From contig NWUY0300003947.1 in the NCBI GenBank assembly GCA_004151065.3, positions 58,695 through 83,795 on the forward strand: 25,101 nt of DNA, written 5' to 3'. Shown here piece after piece: positions 2,601 through 25,101 of the stretch. This stretch comes from Larix sibirica (Eukaryota > Streptophyta > Pinopsida > Pinales > Pinaceae). Position 1 is the first letter of the stretch; each line of letters opens with the position of its first letter. The notes below the pieces were generated by a model. That model was given only the letters and a program-made list of their open reading frames with translations. It was not told where the DNA came from and ran no database searches. Position numbers and translations under genes: made by a program.

Positions 2601-2616
2601 ACTGGATGTCCTCAAT

Positions 2617-3017: not shown

Positions 3018-3280
3018 CACACTGAAGACAAGTGTTGGATTTAATTCATGAGCTAAACCCCAAGAAGGATGCCAAGAAGAAAAACCTTCTAGCCTTAGAG
3101 TCAAGTAAGGAGTTAGAAAGCAACTGGAATGTGGAAGAGAAGATTATTTGTACCACAATGCAGAAGTAGGTGAATCTAAGTAGCCTTCACCCTAAGGAAG
3201 AGAAAGAGATGAAAAAACACTTCCACATTAAGGTCTAAGTCAAGAAGGCCAAGATCGATACTCTATTCGATTCTGGTTAG
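3018..3280 (+). pseudogene. Gypsy gag nucleocapsid and protease remnant
   Basis: At 3018-3038 the peptide HTEDKCW is the H-x4-C half of a CCHC zinc knuckle; the first two cysteines cannot be seen. A frame change follows, then LNPKKDAKKK from 3053 in a second frame. That frame reaches KIDTLFDSG, whose D-S-G at 3269-3277 is the retropepsin active-site triad of gypsy protease. Stops interrupt this frame at 3167-3169, 3236-3238 and directly after the triad at 3278-3280, and the next block is in a different frame, so no protease can be made. Gag would form the particle and the protease would cleave the polyprotein. Assignment is by motif and by position upstream of the spacer at 3307. Confidence 0.65.
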
Positions 3281-3306
3281 CAGAGGGTCTGGTACGTAAG
3301 CCTGGA

Positions 3307-3835
3307 TTGAAAGTACATGGTCACCCTAATCCCTACCCATTGGGATGGGTAAATAAGGATGCAAAGCTCAAAGTCACAAAACAATTCAAGATTAATTTTT
3401 CCATTAGTGAAAAGTATATTGATGATGTGGAGGTAGACGTAGTACCCAAGGATTTTTGTGGCGTAGTGTTTGGAATCCCCTACATGTATATGAGGGATGC
3501 AATCTTCTTGAGGAGAACCAATCAATACCGCTTGATCAAGGACAGTAAATCCTTCATCATCAACACACACAAAGGTAAATCAAAGATCTCTTTGGTAAGT
3601 TCCAACCAAGCAAAAAGTTTGATCAATCCAAGTAGGAAGTTTGTATTGCTTTTCTTAAGACAAAATAAACAAGAAGATGAAACAATAAAAGTGAAGGCAT
3701 CCCTAAAGGGATGTACCAAAGAGCATAAACACCAGTTGGAGAACCTTTTGCGGGAATTTAGAGAAGTGTTCTAGGAGCCTAAGGGGATACCTCCGCGGAG
3801 GGAGGTGGATCACAAGATACGGTTATTTCTAGATT
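3307..3835 (+). pseudogene. Gypsy protease-to-RT spacer region (RT itself missing)
   Basis: An open run of 155 codons (3307-3771) ends at a TAG at 3772-3774, and the same frame resumes after it as EPKGIPPRREVDHKIRLFLDS to about 3835. The block has the character of the region between protease and reverse transcriptase in plant gypsy Pol: a PYPLGW motif, a DVCGVVFG-like segment (here DFCGVVFG), then the IPPRREVDH-type motif that normally stands directly before RT. The stop is most simply a CAG-to-TAG change, since Gln commonly stands here in the family (from memory). The first codon is TTG, so this is a fragment of a polyprotein and not a free-standing gene. After about 3835 the text no longer matches RT; a deletion of the RT and RNase H domains is inferred. 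Confidence 0.75.
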
Positions 3836-3876
3836 CTTTATGTCGAATATCGAGCGATACCCACAATACATAAAAG

Positions 3877-4577
3877 GATGAATAGACAAAAGATGAAGAC
3901 TTAAAAGAGTTACTTCAAAAACTACAAGGCCAATTTCATGTAGAAGAAGGTGATAGCAAGGATGACTATAATATCCAGGATAGGTTATTGTACAAGTTGG
4001 ACAACCTTTGTGATCCTTGAGGTGAGAGATTTCAATTTATCAAAGAGGCACACACCTCCAAATTTGCAGGGCATTTTGGTGTAGAGAATATAGTTGCAAA
4101 CTTACATAGGTATGCTCATTGTCCTAGAATGAAAGAAGATGTAGCTCGGTTTATTAGAGGATGCATACTTTTTGTACAAGAAAGCCCAGTAATAGGAAGC
4201 AAGGTCTATACCATCCCTTACCTTTTCCTACAAGACCATGGGAGTGCATCTCCATGGACTTTGTGGGTTTCAACAAGATGTACATTCTTATGCCTTGTGA
4301 AAAGACCATAAGAGGATAGGAAGCAGTGAACATGCTCTTTGAACATGTCTGGGAGAACTTTGGGATACCTAGAAGCATCATCTTAGACATGGATACTAGA
4401 TTTCTTAGTGCCTTTTGGATTACACTTCGGAAGAAAATAGACATGAAGTTGAAAATATCTACATCATTACATCCACAGACATATGGTTAGATAGAAATAG
4501 TCAACAGGACTTTGGTACAACTTTTGAGGGGTTACAATCAGAAGCACCTAAAGGCTTGGATGAAAACTTGATATATA
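3877..4577 (+). pseudogene. Gypsy integrase: zinc-binding domain and catalytic core, broken
   Basis: An RNase H-to-integrase linker (about 3890-4020) is followed by the HHCC zinc-binding domain. Histidines at 4051-4053 and 4072-4074 are present. The first cysteine is at 4162-4164, but the partner three codons later is Phe (4171-4173). After a frame change the core carries Asp (4257-4259), Asp (4386-4388) and Glu (4494-4496), with exactly 35 residues between the last two, the D,D-35-E pattern. Only 42 residues separate the first two, about 15-20 fewer than usual, so an internal in-frame deletion is likely just after the first Asp. Stops at 4018 (TGA), 4317 (TAG) and 4488 (TAG) fall at expected Arg or Gln positions. 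Integrase would insert the cDNA into the host chromosome; this copy cannot. Confidence 0.8.
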
Positions 4578-5270
4578 TTCAACACTCTTATAACATAACA
4601 GTCCACACTTCCATTGGTAAGATTCCCTTTGAAAATTCTTTTGGATATTTACCACCTTCACCTCTAGATGTTGTATATGGACAACACGAGGGAGTGAGGG
4701 AAGACACCACAGGTGAAGCATTAAGAGCTGAAAATTTCATTGGTACGATTGGCCAAATCCATTTATAAGTATAGGAAGCATTGAATAAGTCACGGGAAAA
4801 ATACAAGGCTAGGTATAACTAACACATGGTTGAAAATTCATTCAAAGTGGGAGATAGAGTATGGTTACACCTAAACAAGGAAATAATACAGGGTCATGGT
4901 AAGAAGATAAAGGCTCTGAGGTATGGTCTTTCGAGGTATTGGAAAAGGTGGGAGATAATGCCTACAAACTCAATCTATCCCCATACATGCGCTTTTACTT
5001 TGTAGTGAATGTGAAAAAACTGAAACTCTATGAACCTTCCATGTTGGATCAGGAACTTGAGCAAGTATTACCTTCTATAGAGGACTTAGCATTAGAGGCT
5101 CAAGCAGAGTTAGCATAAGACACAGTTTTTCCGAAGAAGTCCATAACTACCATGTAGGTAAAGTATGAACTATGGTAGGTTGGGTTGAAAGGACAACTTC
5201 CAAACAACGGTTAATGGTACCCTAAGGAGAAGGTAGAGGAAAAATTTCCTCACCTCATTTAATAAAAGAT
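4520..5270 (+). pseudogene. Gypsy integrase C-terminal region and Pol tail
   Basis: From about 4520 the reading shifts to the frame that is open to 4765 (AWDENLIY... to IGQIHL) and includes FGYLPPSPLDVVYG, a stretch typical of the end of the gypsy integrase core. Stops follow at 4766-4768, 4772-4774 and 4820-4822, all explainable as CAA or CAG changed to TAA or TAG. The next block, FKVGDRVWLHLNKE, is the GPY/F-type C-terminal integrase module; its GPF motif is damaged by a frameshift near 4925. The tail (VNVKKLKLYEPSMLD and then a Trp-containing basic stretch, about 5000-5270) could be a worn chromodomain-like end, but I cannot confirm this. It runs up to the polypurine tract at 5291. Confidence 0.75.
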
Positions 5271-5290
5271 TGTGGGGACCAAAAGCATCC

Positions 5291-5303
5291 CAAAATGGGG
5301 AGG
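5291..5303 (+). other. Gypsy polypurine tract
   Basis: caaaatggggaggt, purine-rich and ending directly at TGTGATATG, the inferred first bases of the 3' LTR. In LTR elements the polypurine tract primes plus-strand DNA synthesis and always abuts the 3' LTR. Confidence 0.7.
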
Positions 5304-6933
5304 TGTGATATGAAATGGATCAATATATAATTTTTCATCTATTTGGAGCTTTCACAATCGAAAGATTGGATGAATTGGCTTGTAGGGCCCATTTTATGGG
5401 CAGGTCTCATTTGGTAGATTTGGATACGAAACCTTTTGAGGCTTGTTTGAGGGTATAAATTATGGAATTTTGGGGGGTAAAATAACCCTTCACTAGTGCC
5501 ATGGTTTATGAAACGATTCGACACTTGGAGACCTTTCTAATGGTCCAAATATCACCTCAATCGGAGTCTGTATGAAGAAGTTATGCCTCTCGCAAGTTGA
5601 CCCATCCAGTTGAACACCATAGTTTTGAGTTGATTCCACAACACCTCTCATTTCTCGCACATGTGGAGCTAGTCACTTGTGGAATTTCAAGAACATTCTA
5701 GAAGATCTAGAACCCTAAATCTAAACAAAAATCGAGGCATGTTAAATACCATACCATTAGGAGAAGAAGGGGTTGCATTTCTATTGTATTGTTCCATAGG
5801 TGAGCAATAATAAGGGGTGGTGGTGAAGAATAAATAGGGAGTAATATATTTTGTAGCATCCATTCAGGCCATAGTGTCCAAGGTAACTCCATCACAAGTA
5901 CCAATTTCCTTTTGCATTTTCATTCTACATAAAAGAGCAAGGCATGGTCCTCATTCCAGTTGGGTTTTTCCCCATAGGGGTTTTACCAGCATAAATTTTG
6001 TGTCGAATGTGTGTGGATTGTGTATTTCTTGTTTCATCATTTCTCTTACAGTTCTAAAAAATAAACTAATTAAAAGAACTAGTGGTATGATCCATTGTGA
6101 CGAACTATTTGTTACACATAATTTTTGTCATCATCGTGATGATGGATAATGTGCCTTTTCCTTTGCCATATTCCCTAAAGGATATGCAGAATATTGCTTG
6201 GAAGATGAAACCTGTGAGGAAATTTCCCTTGAAAAAACCCTAATTTAAGAGGTTGTCCATCTTGATTTTTGAAAAAATGCGACAACCCCTGATGTCGCAG
6301 GTTGCATCACCCCAGATTGTTACATTCTCTCATGTTGCATTTGTACAGGGTGTGACACTCTCTTTATGAAAAGAAAAAGAGAAGGTTCGAGGAGATTCTA
6401 GAATAAAGCCCTCATGGGCATTCATCTCTTCCTATTTGGGTGGATCTCAGCTGAATTCCTAAACCTTTGGAATCCTTCCCTATCCTTCTCCCCTCATTAT
6501 CTCATCTCCCAACTATCCCTTTGAGATTATAAATACAAGCCCAAGCTCATGGAGTAAAGTATGGAATCTTTGATTTCATAGCCAAATGATGGAGAAATTC
6601 TTATATTTCCACAGTGTTGTTGCCATTCCTTGACAGTCATTCTCTTGGAGAAAGACAAGCAAGTTGAGGAAAAGGCACCTTTTGGAGGAAGCCTACAACT
6701 CCAAGGCTATTGGTTGTATCTCTCTCTCTCTTCATTATTTATTAATACAGTAAATGCATTCTTATCCCACAATAACTTGTTCAAATTTTTGTTGCACTCT
6801 TTCTTGGATGTATGCATAAGTTCTATGTAATTGCACTTGTATATTTTATTTTCTTATCTTGGGCAGGTGTTCTACCAAGATCGTATAAGAGTGGAAGATA
6901 CAAGACTAATATGAGGACAACCTTCAGATCACA
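5304..6933 (+). mobile_element. Gypsy 3' LTR (right end approximate)
   Basis: Starts TGTGATATG immediately after the polypurine tract, and its first 290 bases match 2617-2903. A TATAAATAC box at 6528-6536 would drive transcription. The best inverted partner of the TGTGAT start is ATCACA at 6928-6933, giving about 1.63 kb, but no matching target-site duplication was found, so the end could lie further right. No protein gene is apparent inside; small frames at 5339-5524, 5707-5904, 5874-6149 and 6630-7184 have no recognisable domain. A short motif at about 5968-5987 resembles one at 254-274. Confidence 0.65.
6528..6536 (+). promoter_or_regulatory. TATA box of gypsy LTR
   Basis: TATAAATAC preceded by a pyrimidine-rich stretch, within the LTR. 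Its position about three quarters along the LTR fits the U3/R boundary. Inference from consensus and context only. Confidence 0.45.
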
Positions 6934-7256
6934 GGTTAGCCTCCAGACTAATTACATTCATGCTTTGAGAACTTGGGGAAAGAGTTGTGTTTCTATATGT
7001 TCTGTTCCAGTTTAAACTATCTAAACTAGGGAGGTCAGTTTGTATCCGCACTTACAGACTTATCCATAAACATTGTTCCAATGGAATATCCACGTCAATT
7101 TACATATCATCAACTCTGCAAACAACATGTAACTTAAAAATCTTTTGGAACATAGCTTTGTTCCTTTGTAGATTCGACAAATGAGAAAACATCTTCAAAT
7201 CAATATCCTCATCAAATCACCATATTTGATCTACTCAATCGCAGGACCTAGACTTT
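6934..7256 (-). other. Non-coding interval, possibly 5' leader of an antisense gypsy element
   Basis: No recognisable gene. If the primer-binding site at 7257-7276 is real, this is the start of the internal region of a minus-strand gypsy element; a minus-strand ATG near 7175 opens a short frame (MFSHLSNLQRNKAMFQK) that would be placed like a gag start, but I see no Gag motif in it. The interval abuts the plus-strand gypsy LTR, so that LTR may have inserted here. Confidence 0.3.
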
Positions 7257-7276
7257 GTCCTCAACAATGACACCAA
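7257..7276 (-). other. Decayed primer-binding site of an antisense gypsy element
   Basis: On the minus strand this reads TTGGTGTCATTGTTGAGGAC. The motif usual next to plant gypsy 5' LTRs is TTGGCGCCGTTGCCGGGGAC (established, from memory). The two differ at six of 20 positions, and all six are C-to-T or G-to-A. This is what deamination of methylated C would give. It places a minus-strand 5' LTR to the right and the internal region to the left. Confidence 0.55.
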
Positions 7277-8019
7277 TTTTTTACCTCCCAAACCTACACT
7301 TCAATTGTTACAAAATCCTTTAACAAAGTGAAACCCAAGGGGCACTTAGGAAAATTTCCCATTGTCACCTTGCTATACTTCATCTCTCTTTCACCTAATT
7401 CTTTTTATGGAATAAGGGTGGAGCCATACAAAATAAGTGTTTTCTTATTTTTAGAATAGTATAGTGGTAGAATTTATCAAGACTATTGCCTATGCAAATG
7501 GGATATGGAGTTAGGGTAGGTTTAGAACAATAAGGCTTGAATATGGTGGATAATACATAATTAAGTGGTCATAGATAAGCCATAATTATTTAAAAAATAT
7601 GCAGGAATAAATTGAGAGCACTTAAACAAGACACACTATCATAACCATGAAATTACAACCAACTATAATGTGCAACTAACACATAAATAAGGCAACCATG
7701 ACCTCTTTGAACAATATAAATGACAACAATAAATTCCTTCAATAATTCAATACTACATCGAGGATTAGAAAGGATTTAACAGTCAACCCTAATCTCTTCT
7801 TTTGGGACAAATCTTCCATTCTACATAGATTATTCTAGCAACAAGGTAATTGGAATTCTTCAAAAGTAGGTTACAATCCATGAAAATAATATAGAGATGA
7901 AGAAACCTCAACTTGAATCAATGTCATTCTTCCAATTCTACTAAAATCTATTTGACAAAGTACTTGGGAGGGAAATCCCTATCTTCCAACAATGCCTCCA
8001 TCACATGAGAATATATCTC

Positions 8020-8027
8020 CTTTTATA
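8020..8027 (-). promoter_or_regulatory. TATA box, minus strand
   Basis: The plus-strand cttttata is TATAAAAG on the minus strand, in the context actaTAAAAGGAGATA. It is the clearest core-promoter motif in this interval, and it points leftwards, towards the antisense PBS. Confidence 0.45.
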
Positions 8028-8286
8028 GTTTTCCCTTCAACAACTTCTCTAGTAAAATATTATTTCTTTAAAAGGTCCTAGAATCCTCCTAAGGTGGAGT
8101 GCTCCCTATTTCCTTTTGATTGGATATAATGTTTTGAAATGGCGTATGTTTCCACTTGGCATATTTCTATTCCATGATATCCTCTGAAAACATTCATTTA
8201 TTCTTCATTTGAGGTTTTTACCATGTAAATTATGGCACATAGCATCTCCGCATGCAAATAGCTCTCTTCCAAATATGTAGAAAATG

Positions 8287-8812
8287 CCTTGAACAATATG
8301 TCATTACCCCCAAATACCTCAAAGGTGAAAAATGCCTCCAAATATGTGAAACACACCTCAAGCACTGTGTATTTACCCCAAAAGACCCCTTCAAATGTGA
8401 AATACACCTCAAATACACGGAAGCCCCTCCATTAGGATTATTTTACCCCCTTCTTGACATGTGCCATGCTCTAACCACCACCTTGAAGAGAGCGTTCAAT
8501 ATTAAGTGGTCCTTTGACCATGCCTAGTGCAATTTTAAAGCCATGTGGCACCTTCACAATGTGTCCTTACCCCTAAATACCTCAAAGGTTAAAAATGACT
8601 CAAAATATGTGAAACACACCTTAAACATCATGTATTTACCCCAAAACACCTCTTCAAATGTGAAATACACCTCCAATTACATGGAAGCTCCTCCATTAGG
8701 ATTATTTCACCCCTTCTTACCATGTGCCATGTTCTAACCACCACCTTCAAGAGGGAATTTAATATTAAGTGGGACTTTTACAATTCCTAGTGCAATTTTA
8801 GAGCCACAAGGC
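8287..8812. repeat. 263-bp tandem duplication with internal sub-repeats
   Basis: Unit 1 (about 8287-8549) and unit 2 (about 8550-8812) match at offsets of 263-264: aaatacctcaaagg at 8312 and 8575, attagg at 8431 and 8695, cctagtgcaatttta at 8523 and 8786. A third unit begins (about 8813-8835) and fades. Within units, a motif of the form tccaaatatgtgaaa recurs at about 8268, 8337 and 8390, so an older short repeat underlies the long one. Open frames across both units share the peptide EAPPLGLF, which follows from the DNA repeat. The block is upstream of the minus-strand TATA box at 8020-8027. Confidence 0.9.
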
Positions 8813-9068
8813 ACCTTTACAAGTACGGTGTTTTCTCCTTTGGGCTTTATTTGACCCCTACCTTGCCATAAACTGTGCCTTGGAAATTTCCCAAGGATGG
8901 TTGTTCTTCATCTAAGTCTCCCTTCAATCTTACATAATCCATCCATGTTGTCCCAATACCCTAGGTTTGTCTATGTGTAGGGCACTCCATCAATGATGCA
9001 ATAAAGTAGTGATGCATGCCCCCAAACTTGTAGCCAAGCCTCTAATAAGGTAGGGAAATCCTCATTGG
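8813..9068. other. Non-coding interval before the copia element
   Basis: No gene or clear repeat after the third partial unit. A near-palindrome ccttggaaatttcccaagg lies at 8878-8896. The sequence ends at attgg (9064-9068), directly outside the copia LTR; these five bases are the candidate target-site duplication, but the partner is beyond the sequenced end of the other LTR. Confidence 0.5.
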
Positions 9069-9557
9069 TGTTAGAGAATAATAGGATTAGGTAGATCAAT
9101 GAGCTAGTATTCCAATAGAGTGGCGATGTCTAAAGACACGATTACATCACTTTATAAGCACAACCAAGAATAACTCAACATATATAAATGTAAGAAACCA
9201 AACTATTTCCACACACAATGCACTACAAACATGTCAAGTACATGTTGTTTAAATCAATCCATAGGGCCATCTTATATAGCATCAATATGTAACCAACTCC
9301 CTTAAAGTGAGGAAGACAAGGTCCACATAAATTGGTGAGGGCACGTAAGAAGCTCCTCGATTTATACCTTGTTCTACACACTAGTTGGTTGTTTTGTTCT
9401 AATTGTCTGATTGGTTGGAGCCTACTCAACCATTTAATCAATCCCTTTATTCAATCACTCAATCAACTACTTGGATAACTCTTATAGTAAAATATTGACT
9501 CACTCTCTACAAAAGATCCATATGTGTGATAACCCCGCATATCCTATTATTCCAACA
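9069..9557 (-). mobile_element. Copia 3' LTR (489 bp)
   Basis: On the minus strand it begins TGTTGGAATAATAGG (9557 leftwards) and ends CCTATTATTCTCTAACA (to 9069), so the ends are near-perfect inverted repeats with TG...CA termini. The first 230 plus-strand bases match 13848-14084. A minus-strand TATATAAG box at 9271-9278 is a plausible promoter core, and the other LTR has a related TATATAAT. The small minus-strand frame at 9223-9441 is incidental. Confidence 0.88.
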
Positions 9558-9576
9558 ACACCCCCCCTCCCATTAG
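9558..9576 (-). other. Copia polypurine tract
   Basis: The plus-strand acaccccccctcccatta is TAATGGGAGGGGGGTGT on the minus strand, ending at the TG of the 3' LTR. It is a long G-rich purine run in exactly the position needed for plus-strand priming. Confidence 0.8.
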
Positions 9577-9699
9577 CATAATTCTTTGGAGATTCAAGAA
9601 GCAAAATTAATTCTATACACCCTCCCATAATTGTAGCTTCCTAAAGCCTAAGCATAGCCCAAAGTTTCATAGACTTAGCTTCCAAGAGAGGCTTCATAA

Positions 9700-10200
9700 A
9701 TATAATAGTAACACAATCATCTATCCTATAACAATGAAGATTCACAACATTTTGTGTATTGATTATCTCAAATTACGAGCATGAAACTCCACATACTTCA
9801 TCTTGTTGTCTGCAACATGATTTTCTACAACTTGTATTGCACTTTGATTGTCACATTATACCATATTCGATGACTTGACTAGAAAACCAAGTTCACGCAC
9901 GAGGTGTCAAATCTATATGGCCTCTATGCTAGCATGCACTACACCGCAATATTATGATTTTGTGGTTGATAAATAAACCAACTTATGCTTTTTATAGGAC
10001 CAAACAATGGGTTTGGATCCAAGTTGAAACACATAGCTAGATGTAGACTTGATGGTGTCACCTTCTCCAGCCCAGTGTAAGTCAATGTAACTGACTAACT
10101 AGTTCACTTCATTACTATAATACTTTACACCAAGCTGATAAGGGCCCTTGATATAACAACCTATTATCTTTGTTGCTTTAAGGTGACTTTCTTGCCAATC
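9700..10200 (-). pseudogene. Copia RNase H and Pol C-terminus, degenerate
   Basis: The minus-strand frame gives KSTSSYVFQLGS (about 10050), then LVYLSTTKS*Y (a damaged LSSTEAEY motif), EAI*I*HLVRELG, CDNQSAIQVVENH (CDNQS at 9855-9841) and KMKYVEFHARNLR. This is the usual order of motifs in copia RNase H. Stops lie where Glu, Trp and Arg are expected: the tag in EAI*I is a TGG change and the tga after it a CGA change, while the Glu-to-stop needs a transversion. RNase H would remove RNA from the RNA:DNA hybrid during reverse transcription; this copy is dead. The boundary with RT upstream is indistinct because of further frame changes. Confidence 0.8.
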
Positions 10201-10299
10201 CTACATAAATCAAGAAACCACACAAACAACAAAGCAAATATCAAGTTGACTATGAGTTAAAATAATAAGACTACTAACATGATGTCAATAGAGTGTAGC

Positions 10300-10990
10300 A
10301 TCAACTTTCGAAGAATCACACTTCTTGGTTAAATTCACTTTCAACTGATAAGGTGTAGTGCAAGTTTTTTAGTCTTCCATTATGAAATTCTATAATTTTT
10401 CAGCACATACTTAGGTTGAAAAATAAATATACCATCATCCATTTATAAGATTTGGATGCCCAAAAGGAAATGCAATAGACCAAGGTCAGTCACCTTAAAT
10501 GTACATGTTAATGTTTCTTCAAACCCAAAATTAAATTAAGATTGCTTCCAATAATGACTAGGTCATCCACATACAATGTAATAATTAATGTCTCGCCATT
10601 TACATGTAATGCATGGATATTATGATCTAATTCACACCATTTGAAATCGATATTGAGGAAAAAGTGTTCAATTTTTTCATACCATGCCTTGAGGGTTTGT
10701 TTCAAACCATACAAGGCTTTCTTCAATATGCACATACTAGTGCCATCCTTATGAAAACTAGGGGGGTGATCTATATAAATCTCTTCAATGAGATCACCAT
10801 GCAGAAAAGCACTTTTGACATCCATGTAATGTACCTCCCATTTGAAGTAAGCAACCAATGGAATCGATTTCATCTTTGCAAGCGAGGAAAAGGTCTCAGT
10901 ATAGTCGATGCCTTCTTGTTGAGAAAAACCCTTAGCTACCAAACAATCCTCATGTCTTTAAACAATGCCTTCAAATGTGAATTTGGTCTT
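10300..10990 (-). pseudogene. Copia reverse transcriptase, degenerate but with open catalytic core
   Basis: An open run of 144 codons (10942-10511) covers the palm core. VAKGFSQQEGIDYTETFSS (codons 2-20) is the copia entry motif, YMDVKSAFLHGDL (codons 39-51) holds the first catalytic Asp, KKALYGLKQ is at codons 74-82, and YVDD is at codons 124-127 with both catalytic Asp residues. Beyond the stop at 10508-10510 the thumb region continues in broken form, with recognisable pieces such as a remnant of the LYR-x2-SLIxLTHS motif near 10250-10300. Upstream, a stop (taa) near 10958 separates the block from the integrase side. RT would copy the element RNA into DNA. It is the least damaged part of the element, but it cannot be translated as part of a full Pol. 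Confidence 0.88.
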
Positions 10991-11439
10991 GTAGACCCAT
11001 TGACATTTCATTATATTATTTCGTAAATCCCATGTGTAATTCTTCATCAAGGAACGATACTCATCAACCATAGCAATTTCCTATTTAGGTCGACCATGTG
11101 CGTATGCATATGGATCACATGCCTTTGGCACACATGTCATTAGAGCAACACTACCATGTCAGTTCAAATTTTGAGTTTTTCTTGAGTCATTGATGTCTCC
11201 TACATCAACTCCAGCAACTTCAATGGTCTTGTTCGCCCATTTGGGAATACAAACCCTAATTGTTGAAGGAGTTATTATGTCAAGATCATCATTTCTGGAT
11301 CGAATAGGGGTCCCAAAGCTTGTAGTTAGTTCTATTGTGGAATGTCAATTGTAATCGATTTAGGAAAATAAGTCAATTGACTAGTCGAAGGTGCTACGAA
11401 GTAGTCAATCGATCCAGATTTCCCTAATATTTCTAAAGA

Positions 11440-12439
11440 TTTTTGCTCAACAAGCCATAAGAGGAATTCAATGGAGCAATATATAGTTGAAATCATTTCA
11501 TCAAAGACAACATCTCTTGGGTAGATAGTCTCCTATTTGGAAAGGTCAAACAACATGTGGGTCTTTAAATCTTTAGAATAGCCATCATGATACAAGCATG
11601 ACCTTTCACATCTAGTTTCTTCCTTCCGTCATCTAGAATATGAACCCACACTATGCATACAAAGGTTCTAAGATGTCTGATTGGGGATTTTATTCCACTC
11701 CATTTTTTGACTGGAGCACATCCCATATAGATTTAGTTGGAATCAAATTTAACAAATAGTTTGAATAATATACAGTTTTTGCCCAAGGCTTAATTGATAG
11801 ACCTTTGGCTTGAAGCAAACAATGTATCGTTTCTACCAAAGTTTGACTCTTTATTTTAGCAATGCCATTCTATTGAGGTGTGTAAGGTACACATATTTTC
11901 CAAGAGATTCATTTATGTGACAAGTAAATTTCAAAATTCTTGCCTACATATTCTCATCCATTGTTCAATCTTAAACATTCCATAGGTCAACCACTTTGTT
12001 TTTTAACAAATGCACTAAATTCCTTAAACTTTTTTAAGATGAGACTCTAATTCTTTGAGGAATACACCCAAATATACCAAGAAAAATCATCAATGAATGA
12101 AAATCCATCCCTTGCACTAGCTAGTGATGGTTTGTTCAAGGAACACAGGTCACTATGGACAAGTTCCAACCAAGAATTTACTGTCTAAGCTTTCCCTTTT
12201 TCAAAGGAAACTTGATGATTCTTGTCAACCATACATGTTTCATATACTCCATCATGGAGAGAAACCTTAGGTATTCTGGTAACATGTTGTGTTTCACCTT
12301 TAGTTTTAAGCTTCCAAAATTTAGATGTCCGAGTCAATCACACCAAACTCTACTATGATCGTCAGTGTGAACTATGAGTGTAGTCAGTTTTGAGTCTTTC
12401 TTGTGAAAATCACAGAACTTATACAATCTATCATTTGGA
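11440..12439 (-). pseudogene. Copia integrase, degenerate, catalytic residues lost
   Basis: Downstream of protease on the minus strand come a GAG-pre-integrase remnant (CMVDKNHQVSFEKGK, about 12220) and then the core. The first catalytic Asp is in LVHSDLCS (Asp codon 12151-12149), followed by DGFSFIDDFSWY. The second, in the LRSDNGGE-type motif, reads LRLNNG*EY, so Asp has become Asn (codon 11965-11963). The motif TPQQNGxxER reads TPQ*NGIAKI, so the catalytic Glu has become Lys (codon 11857-11855) and a Gln codon has become TAG. Both residue losses are G-to-A changes. Coding-like text continues with stops to about 11440. It would have inserted copia cDNA into the chromosome. Confidence 0.82.
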
Positions 12440-12799
12440 TCAAGGAAATGTCAACAAAAACATGAACAAATTGTGCATACCCTTCATAATAAACCAATTT
12501 GGCCAAAACTCTACCTTCTTGCTAGTACATGTTAGTTGGGGTACAAATAGTAAATTTGCACTCAAGATAGGTACATGATACACATCAATGATCACACTAT
12601 TCTGGCATTCAATCATTCCACAACCAACAAAAATAAGTGCATAATCATTTACTACAAAGATATTTTTTTCTATAGCCTCTTTTAATGAAGAGAGGATGGA
12701 AGCATTGTTAGCCATGTGATGGGTGCAACCACAATCAACTATCCATTCACTTTGGGAAGTATGAGCATTCAAGGATTGAGAGGCATTAACAATAAACAT
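12440..12799 (-). pseudogene. Copia protease region
   Basis: An open run of 119 codons. Residues 19-29 read WIVDCGCTHHM, the copia protease active-site block normally WIVDSGCTHHM; the D-S/T-G triad is changed to D-C-G (12736-12728), which would probably abolish an aspartic protease. The next part (DVYHVPILSANLLFVPQLT, residues 72-90) is the conserved VPxLxxNLLSVxQL segment that leads into the GAG-pre-integrase domain. The first Met is not a biological start, since this is the middle of a Gag-Pol polyprotein; gag lies immediately upstream (13688-12800). Confidence 0.85.
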
Positions 12800-13688
12800 A
12801 TAGTAGTATATGCCTCACCTTCTGAAGTTCATGTTTATAGGTTAGTCGATCTTCCAATCAACATGTCTCCTTCAACTTTCTTCACTTCCTCCTCCGATCC
12901 CTTGGTATTCTACCAACAAGTCTTCTCCATATGTCCCAATTTTTTGTCATAGTCGCGGGACTTATTCTTCCTAACTTTCCTAGTCAAAGTTTAATCATCA
13001 TGTGTTTTTTATCACTTTGGTCAATACTATCATGTTGTTTCTCCTATCGACCTCTTTCTCTGTAATTTTATTGATCTTTTCCCTTCAACAAATGGGCATG
13101 TTGCTTGATCTCAAGTTTCCCTTCATCAAGCAATCTTTCTTGTGTCGTAATCAATCAATCATATAAAGAGACAAAGGAATAATCCTTAACATCATCTTTT
13201 ATGGAGGTATAGCAAGCATGGAATGTCAAACATAACAGATCATATGGTGCATTTAGATTCATTAGGATCAGTTCTATGAGTTGACCATCCTTGTTGGGGA
13301 AATCCTTTCCGCATTTACCTAGTTTTGACTAAAGTTCTTCAATTCTTTTAAAAGAAAGATGATCCAGAGAGATCAATTATTTCTCAATTGATATAACCCA
13401 ACTTTAATTTGTTTTATCAAGCAGAATCTCTGACTTTTTCTAGATAGCATTCAGGTAATCGATCCCACTTGTATAAAAGTGAATCTTGCTATAGATGTTG
13501 GTCATGACTCCTATCTCCTCATCCTTATTCTTATAGATGACAAAATTCTATAGTTCATCCTTTGGATATAGAACCACAAGTTTCATAAACTAACACAACA
13601 CCTTACTCTTCAACAATGTTGCCATATTTTATGCCCAAGTCCCATATTTGTGGCCATTCAAAACCATAGGTTTTTGCTTGGAACTCAT
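12800..13688 (-). pseudogene. Copia gag, degenerate
   Basis: The minus-strand ATG at 13688-13686 starts MSSKQKPMVLNGHKYGTWA, a typical copia Gag opening (a NG-x-NYxxW-like segment). The stop that follows comes where the family has further coding sequence. Several frame-consistent blocks continue leftwards with stops (for example WVISIEK, LDEGKLEIKQHAHLLKG). Near 12960-12915 the sequence SRDYDKKLGHMEKTCW is a CCHC zinc knuckle in which the first two cysteines have been lost while GH and the last Cys remain. Gag would form the virus-like particle and bind RNA. The ATG lies about 145 bp downstream of the PBS, a normal leader length. Confidence 0.75.
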
Positions 13689-13833
13689 AATGTCGATCTA
13701 CTCATCTAATCCTAGATTTAATTTGCGAGTCCAAACTTTGAGTTAATCTACAAGATAGATTCAACAAGTCAGGAGTGCGTACAACCAACAAACTCCACAA
13801 GACTTGTAGACAACATGCTAGATCTCAAACCAC

Positions 13834-13847
13834 CAACATTGATACCA
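13834..13847 (-). other. Copia primer-binding site
   Basis: On the minus strand TGGTATCAATGTTG follows directly after the ...CTGTCA end of the 5' LTR. The first eight bases are identical to TGGTATCAGAGC, the initiator tRNA-Met complement used by most plant copia elements; the remainder has diverged. Confidence 0.8.
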
Positions 13848-14320: not shown

Positions 14321-14849
14321 TTGAAAGTACATGGTCACCCTAATCCCTACCCATTGGGATGGGTAAATAAGGATGCAAAGCTCAAAGTCACAAAACAATT
14401 CAAGATTAATTTTTCCATTAGTGAAAAGTATATTGATGATGTGGAGGTAGACGTAGTACCCAAGGATTTTTGTGGCGTAGTGTTTGGAATCCCCTACATG
14501 TATATGAGGGATGCAATCTTCTTGAGGAGAACCAATCAATACCGCTTGATCAAGGACAGTAAATCCTTCATCATCAACACACACAAAGGTAAATCAAAGA
14601 TCTCTTTGGTAAGTTCCAACCAAGCAAAAAGTTTGATCAATCCAAGTAGGAAGTTTGTATTGCTTTTCTTAAGACAAAATAAACAAGAAGATGAAACAAT
14701 AAAAGTGAAGGCATCCCTAAAGGGATGTACCAAAGAGCATAAACACCAGTTGGAGAACCTTTTGCGGGAATTTAGAGAAGTGTTCTAGGAGCCTAAGGGG
14801 ATACCTCCGCGGAGGGAGGTGGATCACAAGATACGGTTATTTCTAGATT
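14321..14849 (+). pseudogene. Gypsy protease-to-RT spacer, copy 2
   Basis: Identical in translation to 3307-3835: 155 open codons, TAG at 14786-14788, then the IPPRREVDH-type motif and abrupt loss of RT homology near 14849. That the same deletion junction and the same stop occur in both copies shows that the duplication, real or artefactual, postdates all this decay. Confidence 0.75.
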
Positions 14850-14890
14850 CTTTATGTCGAATATCGAGCGATACCCACAATACATAAAAG

Positions 14891-15591
14891 GATGAATAGA
14901 CAAAAGATGAAGACTTAAAAGAGTTACTTCAAAAACTACAAGGCCAATTTCATGTAGAAGAAGGTGATAGCAAGGATGACTATAATATCCAGGATAGGTT
15001 ATTGTACAAGTTGGACAACCTTTGTGATCCTTGAGGTGAGAGATTTCAATTTATCAAAGAGGCACACACCTCCAAATTTGCAGGGCATTTTGGTGTAGAG
15101 AATATAGTTGCAAACTTACATAGGTATGCTCATTGTCCTAGAATGAAAGAAGATGTAGCTCGGTTTATTAGAGGATGCATACTTTTTGTACAAGAAAGCC
15201 CAGTAATAGGAAGCAAGGTCTATACCATCCCTTACCTTTTCCTACAAGACCATGGGAGTGCATCTCCATGGACTTTGTGGGTTTCAACAAGATGTACATT
15301 CTTATGCCTTGTGAAAAGACCATAAGAGGATAGGAAGCAGTGAACATGCTCTTTGAACATGTCTGGGAGAACTTTGGGATACCTAGAAGCATCATCTTAG
15401 ACATGGATACTAGATTTCTTAGTGCCTTTTGGATTACACTTCGGAAGAAAATAGACATGAAGTTGAAAATATCTACATCATTACATCCACAGACATATGG
15501 TTAGATAGAAATAGTCAACAGGACTTTGGTACAACTTTTGAGGGGTTACAATCAGAAGCACCTAAAGGCTTGGATGAAAACTTGATATATA
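14891..15591 (+). pseudogene. Gypsy integrase core, copy 2
   Basis: Same state as in copy 1: His at 15065 and 15086, Cys at 15176 with its partner changed to Phe, catalytic Asp at 15271 and 15400 and Glu at 15508, and stops at 15032, 15331 and 15502. No difference from copy 1 was seen in this interval. Confidence 0.8.
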
Positions 15592-16284
15592 TTCAACACT
15601 CTTATAACATAACAGTCCACACTTCCATTGGTAAGATTCCCTTTGAAAATTCTTTTGGATATTTACCACCTTCACCTCTAGATGTTGTATATGGACAACA
15701 CGAGGGAGTGAGGGAAGACACCACAGGTGAAGCATTAAGAGCTGAAAATTTCATTGGTACGATTGGCCAAATCCATTTATAAGTATAGGAAGCATTGAAT
15801 AAGTCACGGGAAAAATACAAGGCTAGGTATAACTAACACAGGGTTGAAAATTCATTCAAAGTGGGAGATAGAGTATGGTTACACCTAAACAAGGAAATAA
15901 TACAGGGTCATGGTAAGAAGATAAAGGCTCTGAGGTATGGTCTTTCGAGGTATTGGAAAAGGTGGGAGATAATGCCTACAAACTCAATCTATCCCCATAC
16001 ATGCGCTTTTACTTTGTAGTGAATGTGAAAAAACTGAAACTCTATGAACCTTCCATGTTGGATCAGGAACTTGAGCAAGTATTACCTTCTATAGAGGACT
16101 TAGCATTAGAGGCTCAAGCAGAGTTAGCATAAGACACAGTTTTTCCGAAGAAGTCCATAACTACCATGTAGGTAAAGTATGAACTATGGTAGGTGGGGTT
16201 GAAAGGACAACTTCCAAACAACGGTTAATGGTACCCTAAGGAGAAGGTAGAGGAAAAATTTCCTCACCTCATTTAATAAAAGAT
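15534..16284 (+). pseudogene. Gypsy integrase C-terminus and Pol tail, copy 2
   Basis: Same as 4520-5270 apart from two substitutions, t-to-g at 15841 (changing the Met after the N*H stop region) and t-to-g at 16195 in the tail. Stops at 15780, 15786 and 15834 are shared with copy 1. Confidence 0.75.
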
Positions 16285-16317
16285 TGTGGGGACCAAAAGC
16301 ATCCCAAAATGGGGAGG

Positions 16318-17947
16318 TGTGATATGAAATGGATCAATATATAATTTTTCATCTATTTGGAGCTTTCACAATCGAAAGATTGGATGAATTGGCTTGTAGG
16401 GCCCATTTTATGGGCAGGTCTCATTTGGTAGATTTGGATACGAAACCTTTTGAGGCTTGTTTGAGGGTATAAATTATGGAATTTTGGGGGGTAAAATAAC
16501 CCTTCACTAGTGCCATGGTTTATGAAACGATTCGACACTTGGAGACCTTTCTAATGGTCCAAATATCACCTCAATCGGAGTCTGTATGAAGAAGTTATGC
16601 CTCTCGCAAGTTGACCCATCCAGTTGAACACCATAGTTTTGAGTTGATTCCACAACACCTCTCATTTCTCGCACATGTGGAGCTAGTCACTTGTGGAATT
16701 TCAAGAACATTCTAGAAGATCTAGAACCCTAAATCTAAACAAAAATCGAGGCATGTTAAATACCATACCATTAGGAGAAGAAGGGGTTGCATTTCTATTG
16801 TATTGTTCCATAGGTGAGCAATAATAAGGGGTGGTGGTGAAGAATAAATAGGGAGTAATATATTTTGTAGCATCCATTCAGGCCATAGTGTCCAAGGTAA
16901 CTCCATCACAAGTACCAATTTCCTTTTGCATTTTCATTCTACATAAAAGAGCAAGGCATGGTCCTCATTCCAGTTGGGTTTTTCCCCATAGGGGTTTTAC
17001 CAGCATAAATTTTGTGTCGAATGTGTGTGGATTGTGTATTTCTTGTTTCATCATTTCTCTTACAGTTCTAAAAAATAAACTAATTAAAAGAACTAGTGGT
17101 ATGATCCATTGTGACGAACTATTTGTTACACATAATTTTTGTCATCATCGTGATGATGGATAATGTGCCTTTTCCTTTGCCATATTCCCTAAAGGATATG
17201 CAGAATATTGCTTGGAAGATGAAACCTGTGAGGAAATTTCCCTTGAAAAAACCCTAATTTAAGAGGTTGTCCATCTTGATTTTTGAAAAAATGCGACAAC
17301 CCCTGATGTCGCAGGTTGCATCACCCCAGATTGTTACATTCTCTCATGTTGCATTTGTACAGGGTGTGACACTCTCTTTATGAAAAGAAAAAGAGAAGGT
17401 TCGAGGAGATTCTAGAATAAAGCCCTCATGGGCATTCATCTCTTCCTATTTGGGTGGATCTCAGCTGAATTCCTAAACCTTTGGAATCCTTCCCTATCCT
17501 TCTCCCCTCATTATCTCATCTCCCAACTATCCCTTTGAGATTATAAATACAAGCCCAAGCTCATGGAGTAAAGTATGGAATCTTTGATTTCATAGCCAAA
17601 TGATGGAGAAATTCTTATATTTCCACAGTGTTGTTGCCATTCCTTGACAGTCATTCTCTTGGAGAAAGACAAGCAAGTTGAGGAAAAGGCACCTTTGGGA
17701 GGAAGCCTACAACTCCAAGGCTATTGGTTGTATCTCTCTCTCTCTTCATTATTTATTAATACAGTAAATGCATTCTTATCCCACAATAACTTGTTCAAAT
17801 TTTTGTTGCACTCTTTCTTGGATGTATGCATAAGTTCTATGTAATTGCACTTGTATATTTTATTTTCTTATCTTGGGCAGGTGTTCTACCAAGATCGTAT
17901 AAGAGTGGAAGATACAAGACTAATATGAGGACAACCTTCAGATCACA
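16318..17947 (+). mobile_element. Gypsy 3' LTR, copy 2
   Basis: Same as 5304-6933 with one substitution (17697). PPT at 16305-16317, TATA box at 17542-17550, inferred end ATCACA at 17942-17947. Confidence 0.65.
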
Positions 17948-18270
17948 GGTTAGCCTCCAGACTAATTACATTCATGCTTTGAGAACTTGGGGAAAGAGTT
18001 GTGTTTCTATATGTTCTGTTCCAGTTTAAACTATCTAAACTAGGGAGGTCAGTTTGTATCCGCACTTACAGACTTATCCATAAACATTGTTCCAATGGAA
18101 TATCCACGTCAATTTACATATCATCAACTCTGCAAACAACATGTAACTTAAAAATCTTTTGGAACATAGCTTTGTTCCTTTGTAGATTCGACAAATGAGA
18201 AAACATCTTCAAATCAATATCCTCATCAAATCACCATATTTGATCTACTCAATCGCAGGACCTAGACTTT

Positions 18271-18290
18271 GTCCTCAACAATGACACCAA
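18271..18290 (-). other. Decayed antisense gypsy primer-binding site, copy 2
   Basis: Identical to 7257-7276. Confidence 0.55.
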
Positions 18291-20082
18291 TTTTTTACCT
18301 CCCAAACCTACACTTCAATTGTTACAAAATCCTTTAACAAAGTGAAACCCAAGGGGCACTTAGGAAAATTTCCCATTGTCACCTTGCTATACTTCATCTC
18401 TCTTTCACCTAATTCTTTTTATGGAATAAGGGTGGAGCCATACAAAATAAGTGTTTTCTTATTTTTAGAATAGTATAGTGGTAGAATTTATCAAGACTAT
18501 TGCCTATGCAAATGGGATATGGAGTTAGGGTAGGTTTAGAACAATAAGGCTTGAATATGGTGGATAATACATAATTAAGTGGTCATAGATAAGCCATAAT
18601 TATTTAAAAAATATGCAGGAATAAATTGAGAGCACTTAAACAAGACACACTATCATAACCATGAAATTACAACCAACTATAATGTGCAACTAACACATAA
18701 ATAAGGCAACCATGACCTCTTTGAACAATATAAATGACAACAATAAATTCCTTCAATAATTCAATACTACATCGAGGATTAGAAAGGATTTAACAGTCAA
18801 CCCTAATCTCTTCTTTTGGGACAAATCTTCCATTCTACATAGATTATTCTAGCAACAAGGTAATTGGAATTCTTCAAAAGTAGGTTACAATCCATGAAAA
18901 TAATATAGAGATGAAGAAACCTCAACTTGAATCAATGTCATTCTTCCAATTCTACTAAAATCTATTTGACAAAGTACTTGGGAGGGAAATCCCTATCTTC
19001 CAACAATGCCTCCATCACATGAGAATATATCTCCTTTTATAGTTTTCCCTTCAACAACTTCTCTAGTAAAATATTATTTCTTTAAAAGGTCCTAGAATCC
19101 TCCTAAGGTGGAGTGCTCCCTATTTCCTTTTGATTGGATATAATGTTTTGAAATGGCGTATGTTTCCACTTGGCATATTTCTATTCCATGATATCCTCTG
19201 AAAACATTCATTTATTCTTCATTTGAGGTTTTTACCATGTAAATTATGGCACATAGCATCTCCGCATGCAAATAGCTCTCTTCCAAATATGTAGAAAATG
19301 CCTTGAACAATATGTCATTACCCCCAAATACCTCAAAGGTGAAAAATGCCTCCAAATATGTGAAACACACCTCAAGCACTGTGTATTTACCCCAAAAGAC
19401 CCCTTCAAATGTGAAATACACCTCAAATACACGGAAGCCCCTCCATTAGGATTATTTTACCCCCTTCTTGACATGTGCCATGCTCTAACCACCACCTTGA
19501 AGAGAGCGTTCAATATTAAGTGGTCCTTTGACCATGCCTAGTGCAATTTTAAAGCCATGTGGCACCTTCACAATGTGTCCTTACCCCTAAATACCTCAAA
19601 GGTTAAAAATGACTCAAAATATGTGAAACACACCTTAAACATCATGTATTTACCCCAAAACACCTCTTCAAATGTGAAATACACCTCCAATTACATGGAA
19701 GCTCCTCCATTAGGATTATTTCACCCCTTCTTACCATGTGCCATGTTCTAACCACCACCTTCAAGAGGGAATTTAATATTAAGTGGGACTTTTACAATTC
19801 CTAGTGCAATTTTAGAGCCACAAGGCACCTTTACAAGTACGGTGTTTTCTCCTTTGGGCTTTATTTGACCCCTACCTTGCCATAAACTGTGCCTTGGAAA
19901 TTTCCCAAGGATGGTTGTTCTTCATCTAAGTCTCCCTTCAATCTTACATAATCCATCCATGTTGTCCCAATACCCTAGGTTTGTCTATGTGTAGGGCACT
20001 CCATCAATGATGCAATAAAGTAGTGATGCATGCCCCCAAACTTGTAGCCAAGCCTCTAATAAGGTAGGGAAATCCTCATTGG
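18291..20082 (-). mobile_element. Putative antisense gypsy 5' LTR, copy 2
   Basis: Identical as far as I can see to 7277-9068, with the minus-strand TATA box at 19034-19041. The same uncertainty about its limits applies. Confidence 0.45.
19301..19826. repeat. 263-bp tandem duplication, copy 2
   Basis: Same two units as 8287-8812. All substitutions that distinguish unit 1 from unit 2 are preserved, so no exchange between units has occurred since the two 11-kb copies separated. Confidence 0.9.
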
Positions 20083-20571
20083 TGTTAGAGAATAATAGGA
20101 TTAGGTAGATCAATGAGCTAGTATTCCAATAGAGTGGCGATGTCTAAAGACACGATTACATCACTTTATAAGCACAACCAAGAATAACTCAACATATATA
20201 AATGTAAGAAACCAAACTATTTCCACACACAATGCACTACAAACATGTCAAGTACATGTTGTTTAAATCAATCCATAGGGCCATCTTATATAGCATCAAT
20301 ATGTAACCAACTCCCTTAAAGTGAGGAAGACAAGGTCCACATAAATTGGTGAGGGCACGTAAGAAGCTCCTCGATTTATACCTTGTTCTACACACTAGTT
20401 GGTTGTTTTGTTCTAATTGTCTGATTGGTTGGAGCCTACTCAACCATTTAATCAATCCCTTTATTCAATCACTCAATCAACTACTTGGATAACTCTTATA
20501 GTAAAATATTGACTCACTCTCTACAAAAGATCCATATGTGTGATAACCCCGCATATCCTATTATTCCAACA
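20083..20571 (-). mobile_element. Copia 3' LTR, copy 2
   Basis: Identical to 9069-9557. The polypurine tract follows at 20572-20590. Confidence 0.88.
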
Positions 20572-20713
20572 ACACCCCCCCTCCCATTAGCATAATTCTT
20601 TGGAGATTCAAGAAGCAAAATTAATTCTATACACCCTCCCATAATTGTAGCTTCCTAAAGCCTAAGCATAGCCCAAAGTTTCATAGACTTAGCTTCCAAG
20701 AGAGGCTTCATAA

Positions 20714-21214
20714 ATATAATAGTAACACAATCATCTATCCTATAACAATGAAGATTCACAACATTTTGTGTATTGATTATCTCAAATTACGAGCATGAAA
20801 CTCCACATACTTCATCTTGTTGTCTGCAACATGATTTTCTACAACTTGTATTGCACTTTGATTGTCACATTATACCATATTCGATGACTTGACTAGAAAA
20901 CCAAGTTCACGCACGAGGTGTCAAATCTATATGGCCTCTATGCTAGCATGCACTACACCGCAATATTATGATTTTGTGGTTGATAAATAAACCAACTTAT
21001 GCTTTTTATAGGACCAAACAATGGGTTTGGATCCAAGTTGAAACACATAGCTAGATGTAGACTTGATGGTGTCACCTTCTCCAGCCCAGTGTAAGTCAAT
21101 GTAACTGACTAACTAGTTCACTTCATTACTATAATACTTTACACCAAGCTGATAAGGGCCCTTGATATAACAACCTATTATCTTTGTTGCTTTAAGGTGA
21201 CTTTCTTGCCAATC
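20714..21214 (-). pseudogene. Copia RNase H, copy 2
   Basis: Same motifs and stops as 9700-10200, including CDNQS at 20869-20855. Confidence 0.8.
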
Positions 21215-21313
21215 CTACATAAATCAAGAAACCACACAAACAACAAAGCAAATATCAAGTTGACTATGAGTTAAAATAATAAGACTACTAACATGATGTC
21301 AATAGAGTGTAGC

Positions 21314-22004
21314 ATCAACTTTCGAAGAATCACACTTCTTGGTTAAATTCACTTTCAACTGATAAGGTGTAGTGCAAGTTTTTTAGTCTTCCATTATGAA
21401 ATTCTATAATTTTTCAGCACATACTTAGGTTGAAAAATAAATATACCATCATCCATTTATAAGATTTGGATGCCCAAAAGGAAATGCAATAGACCAAGGT
21501 CAGTCACCTTAAATGTACATGTTAATGTTTCTTCAAACCCAAAATTAAATTAAGATTGCTTCCAATAATGACTAGGTCATCCACATACAATGTAATAATT
21601 AATGTCTCGCCATTTACATGTAATGCATGGATATTATGATCTAATTCACACCATTTGAAATCGATATTGAGGAAAAAGTGTTCAATTTTTTCATACCATG
21701 CCTTGAGGGTTTGTTTCAAACCATACAAGGATTTCTTCAATATGCACATACTAGTGCCATCCTTATGAAAACTAGGGGGGTGATCTATATAAATCTCTTC
21801 AATGAGATCACCATGCAGAAAAGCACTTTTGACATCCATGTAATGTACCTCCCATTTGAAGTAAGCAACCAATGGAATCGATTTCATCTTTGCAAGCGAG
21901 GAAAAGGTCTCAGTATAGTCGATGCCTTCTTGTTGAGAAAAACCCTTAGCTACCAAACAATCCTCATGTCTTTAAACAATGCCTTCAAATGTGAATTTGG
22001 TCTT
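21314..22004 (-). pseudogene. Copia reverse transcriptase, copy 2
   Basis: Same 144-codon open core (21956-21525) with MDVKSAFLHGD and YVDD. The single difference, at 21731, makes codon 76 Ser, giving KKSLYGLKQ. Ser is the usual residue in copia RTs (family knowledge), so copy 2 appears to hold the original base and copy 1 the change or error. Confidence 0.88.
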
Positions 22005-22453
22005 GTAGACCCATTGACATTTCATTATATTATTTCGTAAATCCCATGTGTAATTCTTCATCAAGGAACGATACTCATCAACCATAGCAATTTCCTATTT
22101 AGGTCGACCATGTGCGTATGCATATGGATCACATGCCTTTGGCACACATGTCATTAGAGCAACACTACCATGTCAGTTCAAATTTTGAGTTTTTCTTGAG
22201 TCATTGATGTCTCCTACATCAACTCCAGCAACTTCAATGGTCTTGTTCGCCCATTTGGGAATACAAACCCTAATTGTTGAAGGAGTTATTATGTCAAGAT
22301 CATCATTTCTGGATCGAATAGGGGTCCCAAAGCTTGTAGTTAGTTCTATTGTGGAATGTCAATTGTAATCGATTTAGGAAAATAAGTCAATTGACTAGTC
22401 GAAGGTGCTACGAAGTAGTCAATCGATCCAGATTTCCCTAATATTTCTAAAGA

Positions 22454-23453
22454 TTTTTGCTCAACAAGCCATAAGAGGAATTCAATGGAGCAATATATAG
22501 TTGAAATCATTTCATCAAAGACAACATCTCTTGGGTAGATAGTCTCCTATTTGGAAAGGTCAAACAACATGTGGGTCTTTAAATCTTTAGAATAGCCATC
22601 ATGATACAAGCATGACCTTTCACATCTAGTTTCTTCCTTCCGTCATCTAGAATATGAACCCACACTATGCATACAAAGGTTCTAAGATGTCTGATTGGGG
22701 ATTTTATTCCACTCCATTTTTTGACTGGAGCACATCCCATATAGATTTAGTTGGAATCAAATTTAACAAATAGTTTGAATAATATACAGTTTTTGCCCAA
22801 GGCTTAATTGATAGACCTTTGGCTTGAAGCAAACAATGTATCGTTTCTACCAAAGTTTGACTCTTTATTTTAGCAATGCCATTCTATTGAGGTGTGTAAG
22901 GTACACATATTTTCCAAGAGATTCATTTATGTGACAAGTAAATTTCAAAATTCTTGCCTACATATTCTCATCCATTGTTCAATCTTAAACATTCCATAGG
23001 TCAACCACTTTGTTTTTTAACAAATGCACTAAATTCCTTAAACTTTTTTAAGATGAGACTCTAATTCTTTGAGGAATACACCCAAATATACCAAGAAAAA
23101 TCATCAATGAATGAAAATCCATCCCTTGCACTAGCTAGTGATGGTTTGTTCAAGGAACACAGGTCACTATGGACAAGTTCCAACCAAGAATTTACTGTCT
23201 AAGCTTTCCCTTTTTCAAAGGAAACTTGATGATTCTTGTCAACCATACATGTTTCATATACTCCATCATGGAGAGAAACCTTAGGTATTCTGGTAACATG
23301 TTGTGTTTCACCTTTAGTTTTAAGCTTCCAAAATTTAGATGTCCGAGTCAATCACACCAAACTCTACTATGATCGTCAGTGTGAACTATGAGTGTAGTCA
23401 GTTTTGAGTCTTTCTTGTGAAAATCACAGAACTTATACAATCTATCATTTGGA
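22454..23453 (-). pseudogene. Copia integrase, copy 2
   Basis: Same as 11440-12439, including loss of the second catalytic Asp (Asn at 22979-22977) and of the catalytic Glu (Lys at 22871-22869). Confidence 0.82.
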
Positions 23454-23813
23454 TCAAGGAAATGTCAACAAAAACATGAACAAATTGTGCATACCCTTCA
23501 TAATAAACCAATTTGGCCAAAACTCTACCTTCTTGCTAGTACATGTTAGTTGGGGTACAAATAGTAAATTTGCACTCAAGATAGGTACATGATACACATC
23601 AATGATCACACTATTCTGGCATTCAATCATTCCACAACCAACAAAAATAAGTGCATAATCATTTACTACAAAGATATTTTTTTCTATAGCCTCTTTTAAT
23701 GAAGAGAGGATGGAAGCATTGTTAGCCATGTGATGGGTGCAACCACAATCAACTATCCATTCACTTTGGGAAGTATGAGCATTCAAGGATTGAGAGGCAT
23801 TAACAATAAACAT
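23454..23813 (-). pseudogene. Copia protease region, copy 2
   Basis: Translation identical to 12440-12799, with D-C-G at 23750-23742 in place of the D-S/T-G active site. Confidence 0.85.
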
Positions 23814-24702
23814 ATAGTAGTATATGCCTCACCTTCTGAAGTTCATGTTTATAGGTTAGTCGATCTTCCAATCAACATGTCTCCTTCAACTTTCTTCACT
23901 TCCTCCTCCGATCCCTTGGTATTCTACCAACAAGTCTTCTCCATATGTCCCAATTTTTTGTCATAGTCGCGGGACTTATTCTTCCTAACTTTCCTAGTCA
24001 AAGTTTAATCATCATGTGTTTTTTATCACTTTGGTCAATACTATCATGTTGTTTCTCCTATCGACCTCTTTCTCTGTAATTTTATTGATCTTTTCCCTTC
24101 AACAAATGGGCATGTTGCTTGATCTCAAGTTTCCCTTCATCAAGCAATCTTTCTTGTGTCGTAATCAATCAATCATATAAAGAGACAAAGGAATAATCCT
24201 TAACATCATCTTTTATGGAGGTATAGCAAGCATGGAATGTCAAACATAACAGATCATATGGTGCATTTAGATTCATTAGGATCAGTTCTATGAGTTGACC
24301 ATCCTTGTTGGGGAAATCCTTTCCGCATTTACCTAGTTTTGACTAAAGTTCTTCAATTCTTTTAAAAGAAAGATGATCCAGAGAGATCAATTATTTCTCA
24401 ATTGATATAACCCAACTTTAATTTGTTTTATCAAGCAGAATCTCTGACTTTTTCTAGATAGCATTCAGGTAATCGATCCCACTTGTATAAAAGTGAATCT
24501 TGCTATAGATGTTGGTCATGACTCCTATCTCCTCATCCTTATTCTTATAGATGACAAAATTCTATAGTTCATCCTTTGGATATAGAACCACAAGTTTCAT
24601 AAACTAACACAACACCTTACTCTTCAACAATGTTGCCATATTTTATGCCCAAGTCCCATATTTGTGGCCATTCAAAACCATAGGTTTTTGCTTGGAACTC
24701 AT
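23814..24702 (-). pseudogene. Copia gag, copy 2
   Basis: Same degenerate gag as 12800-13688, with ATG at 24702-24700 and a worn zinc knuckle near 23930-23975. Confidence 0.75.
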
Positions 24703-24847
24703 AATGTCGATCTACTCATCTAATCCTAGATTTAATTTGCGAGTCCAAACTTTGAGTTAATCTACAAGATAGATTCAACAAGTCAGGAGTGCGTACAACC
24801 AACAAACTCCACAAGACTTGTAGACAACATGCTAGATCTCAAACCAC

Positions 24848-24861
24848 CAACATTGATACCA
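24848..24861 (-). other. Copia primer-binding site, copy 2
   Basis: Identical to 13834-13847. Confidence 0.8.
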
Positions 24862-25101
24862 TGACAGAGAATTAGAGGATTAGGTAGATTAAAGAGCTAG
24901 TATTCCAACTAAGTGGTGGTGTATAAAGACATTGTTACAACATTTAATTACAACTAAGCATAGATCAACATACATATTAGTGTAAGAAACCAAAAGACTT
25001 TCATACACAATACACTACACACATGTTCGCTACCTGTTATGTAGATTGACCCATAGGGCCATATTATATAGCACCAACATAGATCCATCTTAAACCTGGA
25101 T
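24862..25101 (-). mobile_element. Copia 5' LTR, copy 2, partial
   Basis: Identical to 13848-14084 and three bases longer (gat). The rest lies beyond the window. Confidence 0.85.

Follow-up and report, generated by a model that had tools for sequence, protein, structure and literature searches.

A near-identical 11-kb repeat around a single N in a Larix sibirica scaffold is very probably a false duplication

The stretch of Larix sibirica DNA considered here (25,101 nucleotides, bases 58,695-83,795 of scaffold C1351; hereafter the window) presents the same 11 kb twice in succession, with a single N between the two copies. The question is whether the genome contains this DNA twice or the assembly represents one locus two times. 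We believe that the latter holds with a probability of about 0.96, i.e., that the repeat is a false duplication, in which redundant contigs of one locus stand in series. An assembly error of this kind is already known, and the duplication itself is without biological interest. The coordinates are collected in Table 1.

Table 1. Contigs, joins, repeat copies and transposon fragments in the window
Feature	Position	Strand	Evidence or remark
Contig X, preceding; its end (2624-2900) is LTR-like	1-2903		ends at the N at 2904
First join of the scaffold within the window, one N	2904		sequence
Contig A, 11,180 bp, N at both ends	2905-14084		sequence
167 bp exclusive to contig A, continuing the gypsy homology seen in relatives	2905-3071	+	5/5 relatives (L004-L008)
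Copy 1 of the duplicated 11,013 bp	3072-14084	+	comparison, BLAST
Integrase zinc-binding (H2C2) fragment, gypsy-like element	4021-4311	+	PF17921, E 8.1e-12
Second LTR-like stretch of the gypsy-like element	5306-5589	+	sequence comparison
Copia LTR, 3' by element direction	9073-9288	-	77.5% identical to 13852-14066
Copia reverse transcriptase fragment	10508-10957	-	PF07727 RVT_2, E 3.9e-39
Copia Pol beta-barrel fragment (Pol_BBD)	12440-12814	-	PF22936, E 3.9e-15
Copia LTR, 5' by element direction, copy 1	13852-14066	-	homology to most relatives examined ends here, 18 bp short of the contig end
Single N separating copy 1 and copy 2	14085		sequence
Copy 2 of the duplicated 11,013 bp	14086-25098	+	comparison, BLAST
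Contig B, 11,016 bp, last contig of scaffold C1351	14086-25101		sequence, scaffold length
Sole 3 bp of contig B missing from contig A	25099-25101	+	sequence

Direct comparison of the two copies gives a match at an offset of 11,014 with six substitutions and no indel, and BLAST of copy 1 against copy 2 reports 99.946% identity across 11,013 bp. The substitutions (copy 1/copy 2) are 3082 A/G, 3095 T/A, 4827 T/G, 5181 T/G, 6683 T/G and 10717 C/A. Such identity over such a length rules out chance similarity as the cause of the match; the stop codons and the reverse transcriptase (RT) deletion shared by the copies would simply follow from it. A preliminary description of this DNA had proposed the offset, the six substitutions and the absence of a net indel, and all of these are exact to the base. 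It had also placed the edges of the match at the N, and the coordinates agree: the last base of copy 1 stands directly before position 14085 and the first base of copy 2 directly after it.

The window contains exactly two N and ends where scaffold C1351 ends (83,795 bp, window position 25101), 3 bp past the end of the match. Contig B is contained in contig A except for these 3 bp at the right, and contig A is longer by 167 bp at the left, so that copy 1 starts inside contig A and not at its end. The N at 2904, the 167 unmatched bp and the scaffold end were absent from the preliminary description. On these coordinates, we take the arrangement to be less a long dovetail of two continuing contigs than a duplicate, nearly contained contig at a scaffold end.

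The repeat could also be real, if 11 kb of decayed gypsy and copia DNA had been duplicated in tandem very recently and the junction had defeated the assembler and been left as an N. The head-to-tail order agrees with this, and nothing in the sequence forbids it; however, one breakpoint would then have to coincide with a scaffold join, and the end of the second unit with the scaffold end to within 3 bp. The left edge presents a further difficulty. In each of the five gypsy-part relatives examined (L004-L008), the match with contig A begins between 2906 and 2940, crosses 3071/3072 and reaches 3400, the end of the query, with 75-78% identity. The left part of contig A is therefore an ordinary continuation of the element, and the left edge of contig B is a cut inside it; a real unit would have to start at this arbitrary point. 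Considering that the same edge pattern is found elsewhere in the assembly (see below), we regard a real tandem duplication as extremely improbable.

At the right edge, the relatives of the copia LTR diverge from both contigs near 14066 and 25080, i.e., 18 and 21 bp before the contig ends. The homology stops there in seven of eight relatives and extends 10 bp further in the eighth; this set of eight excludes the window's own left LTR and four minus-strand loci, and the genome search contains a few LTR matches that end elsewhere. A 19-base word at 14064-14082 and 25078-25096 recurs in reversed orientation at C1351:18730, one base into another contig, past a single N at 18728. The contigs concerned may all end some 20 bp inside one shared repeat.

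The assembly searched for further copies comprises 618 Mb in 19,862 sequences. For four probes (13900-14300, 24850-25101, 4600-5300 and 5600-8200), the two tandem copies are the only near-identical matches among those scored, and the next matches by E-value are 86%, 79%, 82% and 81% identical, respectively. The probes span part of the 11 kb; the search scored the best candidates from part of the assembly, and its counts are lower bounds. A 401-base probe across the 14085 junction has no other full-length match among the 40 matches scored, the actual content of the junction being masked by the N; the only junction between copy 1 and copy 2 that we see is the one with this N.

The other join of the window is of a different character. 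In a related locus (L036), the counterparts of window positions 2616-2903 and 2910-3400 are separated by about 1.5 kb, with an N of that locus's own between them. The join at 2904 thus probably hides about 1.5 kb of missing gypsy-like sequence between contigs X and A, unless there is a deletion in this copy. Since the join at 2904 seems to leave sequence out and that at 14085 repeats 11 kb, a single N says little about the true distance between the contigs that it separates.

The same pattern was found at other joins. In scaffold C10881, positions 19565-21241 equal 21243-22919 (1,677 bp) with zero differences and a single N at 21242; a further N stands at 19555, and the scaffold ends at 22949, 30 bp past the match. 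Judged by this layout, C10881:19556-22949 (L046, L047) is a second putative false duplication of the same design. More generally, we considered 13 joins in 151,729 called bases, each made of 1-3 N and flanked on either side by 50 bases or more; the loci sampled are relatives of the transposons plus some places chosen by number, and the sample is not random. The first 13 bases of the right contig recur upstream (within 12 kb, or less where the flank is shorter) at four of the 13 joins. For comparison, a 13-base word recurs in this manner at 322 of 12,828 random positions (2.5%), which are those left from 20,000 drawn after positions containing an N or lying inside copy 2 were dropped. Three of the four exact-word overlaps, of 13, 19 and 1,677 bp, end exactly at the N.

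The short unmerged overlaps are those at C8829:24376 (19 bp, one N), C2664:33524 (13 bp, three N) and C19862:9407 (43 bp at 95%, one N); in the last, 41 of 43 bases match and the overlap stops 11 bases before the N. At the fourth exact-word join (L026, C16886:5665-6901), the 187 bases to the right of the NN at C16886:6713 recur without a difference about 1 kb upstream; this is perhaps another repeated contig, truncated where the examined sequence ends. The exact-word test fails at C19862:9407 and at the window's own 14085 join because of substitutions; with both included, overlaps are found at six of the 13 joins. The remaining seven (C1351:18728; C1351:61598, which is window position 2904; C2581:56593; C10337:20509; C10881:19555; C5587:57788; C12542:8125) have no clear overlap, a number to be read with the fact that several upstream flanks are short or rich in long N runs, where overlaps may be missed. 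It is thus ruled out that a single N always marks an overlap.

Some other observations concern the redundancy of the assembly. At C12542:8125 (L050), counted above as having no overlap, the contig to the right of an NN opens with 538 aligned columns that are 76% like the end of the left contig; these would be either joined related elements or an old tandem pair. In the scaffold pairs C16938/C15919 and C13220/C6218, the matches agree in coordinates and scores, and these scaffolds may be redundant. Pairs of matches with equal scores within one scaffold (C5618, C133, C9443, C327 and C5944) are candidate false duplications.

The repeated DNA consists of old transposon sequence, and both copies hold everything described here except the gypsy LTR at 2624-2900, which belongs to contig X. 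The first element is called gypsy-like because of its H2C2 fragment and in agreement with the preliminary description; its LTR-like stretches, 2624-2900 and 5313-5589, are 81% identical by BLAST. The copia LTRs, previously described as about one quarter diverged, indeed measure 77.5% identity across 218 aligned columns (BLAST). Between the gypsy and copia parts there is a repeat pair (8293-8822 and, in the second copy, 19307-19836) with units of about 267 bp that start 263 bp apart and are 86% alike. A Pfam scan of 12 distinct frames out of the 27 of at least 70 aa in 1-14084 found only transposon domains above the cut-off. In a list of 120 copia RT relatives, the highest entry with a name is from Taxus (50% identity), and after it come two with Gb_ labels; flowering plants, a fern and one PITA_ label stand further down. 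We take Gb_ and PITA_ to be labels of Ginkgo and Pinus taeda proteins, respectively.

If the repeat is a false duplication, the six differences bear on its origin. Contigs A and B could be two haplotypes of a diploid (the heterotype case), placed in series. Two of the six differences lie within 24 bp of the start of contig B (P of about 7e-5 if differences are uniform), as if B began at a variant site. Simple errors at the end of contig B can be rejected as their source, considering that relatives carry B's base at both: four of five at 3082, where the fifth has the base of contig A, and five of five at 3095. At 4827, the base of contig B is found at eight of ten loci and that of contig A at none, the loci including the redundant C10881 pair; at 5181, the ten loci (two of them this same pair) have G in four, T in four and A in two. 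At 10717, all three DNA relatives have the base of contig B, one of them within a poorly aligned stretch, and 120 protein homologues include 72 with alanine, as encoded by contig A, and 43 with serine, as encoded by contig B.

Judged from these relatives, the unusual base stands in contig A wherever the site can be polarised, namely at 3082, 3095 and 4827. A plain random error in B fails as an explanation, since most relatives share its base at these sites; the unusual bases could reflect an allele that is derived, mistakes in A, or the incorporation into B of reads that come from relatives. The haplotype explanation gains from this, as A looks derived rather than B erroneous. It is weakened by the presence of just six differences in 11 kb, by the zero differences between the redundant contigs of C10881, and by the five transversions among the six differences, which fit error better than ordinary mutation (the probability of at least five is 0.35 if two thirds are expected and 0.018 if one third is). 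We give it somewhat less than an even chance.

Alternatively, A and B could be redundant contigs of the same sequence (the homotype case) that differ because of errors in the assembly or the reads, or because reads from gypsy and copia relatives were pulled into one of them. The excess of transversions, the identical redundant pair in C10881 and the scaffold pairs with equal coordinates are in favor of this. The location of the unusual bases at 3082 and 3095 is not: they lie 178 and 191 bp from the end of contig A, and contig B, whose end is closest, does not have them. The odds of this second case appear to us about even, and we make no firm choice between allelic and plain redundant contigs.

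In either case, contigs A and B would be two assembled versions of one stretch that contains a decayed gypsy-like element, the repeat pair and an old copia element. The assembler would have kept them separate, their right ends lying a little beyond the copia LTR and differing by 3 bp; a scaffolder would then have lined them up one after the other and put a single N between them. We infer this placement, as well as the step of the pipeline that failed. The coordinates, the near containment, the scaffold end, the continuity of the gypsy homology and the recurrence elsewhere in the assembly are matters of observation. The earlier proposal that one locus is represented twice is strongly supported by the match ending at the N, the near containment of B in A, the homology of relatives running through the start of B, and the overlaps at other short-N joins.

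The practical consequence is a warning that in this assembly one sequence may stand on both sides of a short N run. Unless redundant contigs are purged first, the assembly is likely to overstate the numbers of transposons, tandem repeats and young duplications.

For Meraculous, contigs that overlap and have a negative gap estimate are described in PMC3158087, and the behaviour of SOAPdenovo2 and ALLPATHS-LG in this respect is given in PMC5368935. The likeness to these systems is that contigs flanking a gap overlap and yet stay unmerged; the assembly literature consulted names no scaffolder as the one that writes a single N for overlapping contigs. The difference from Meraculous is that the unmerged overlaps in the cited part of PMC3158087 are too short or repetitive, whereas the overlap here is 11 kb.

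The closest known cases are the false duplications of PMC9516828 (Genome Biol 2022), in which, according to the sections cited here, gaps between copies are a mark of the phenomenon, and heterotype and homotype duplications are named and classified by read depth, k-mers and linked reads. The common features are near-identical adjacent copies in one scaffold with an assembly gap between them, found here at 99.946% identity with the N at 14085. In contrast to those cases, the present one is recognised from assembled sequence, and the Larix sibirica stretch that is repeated holds decayed transposons.
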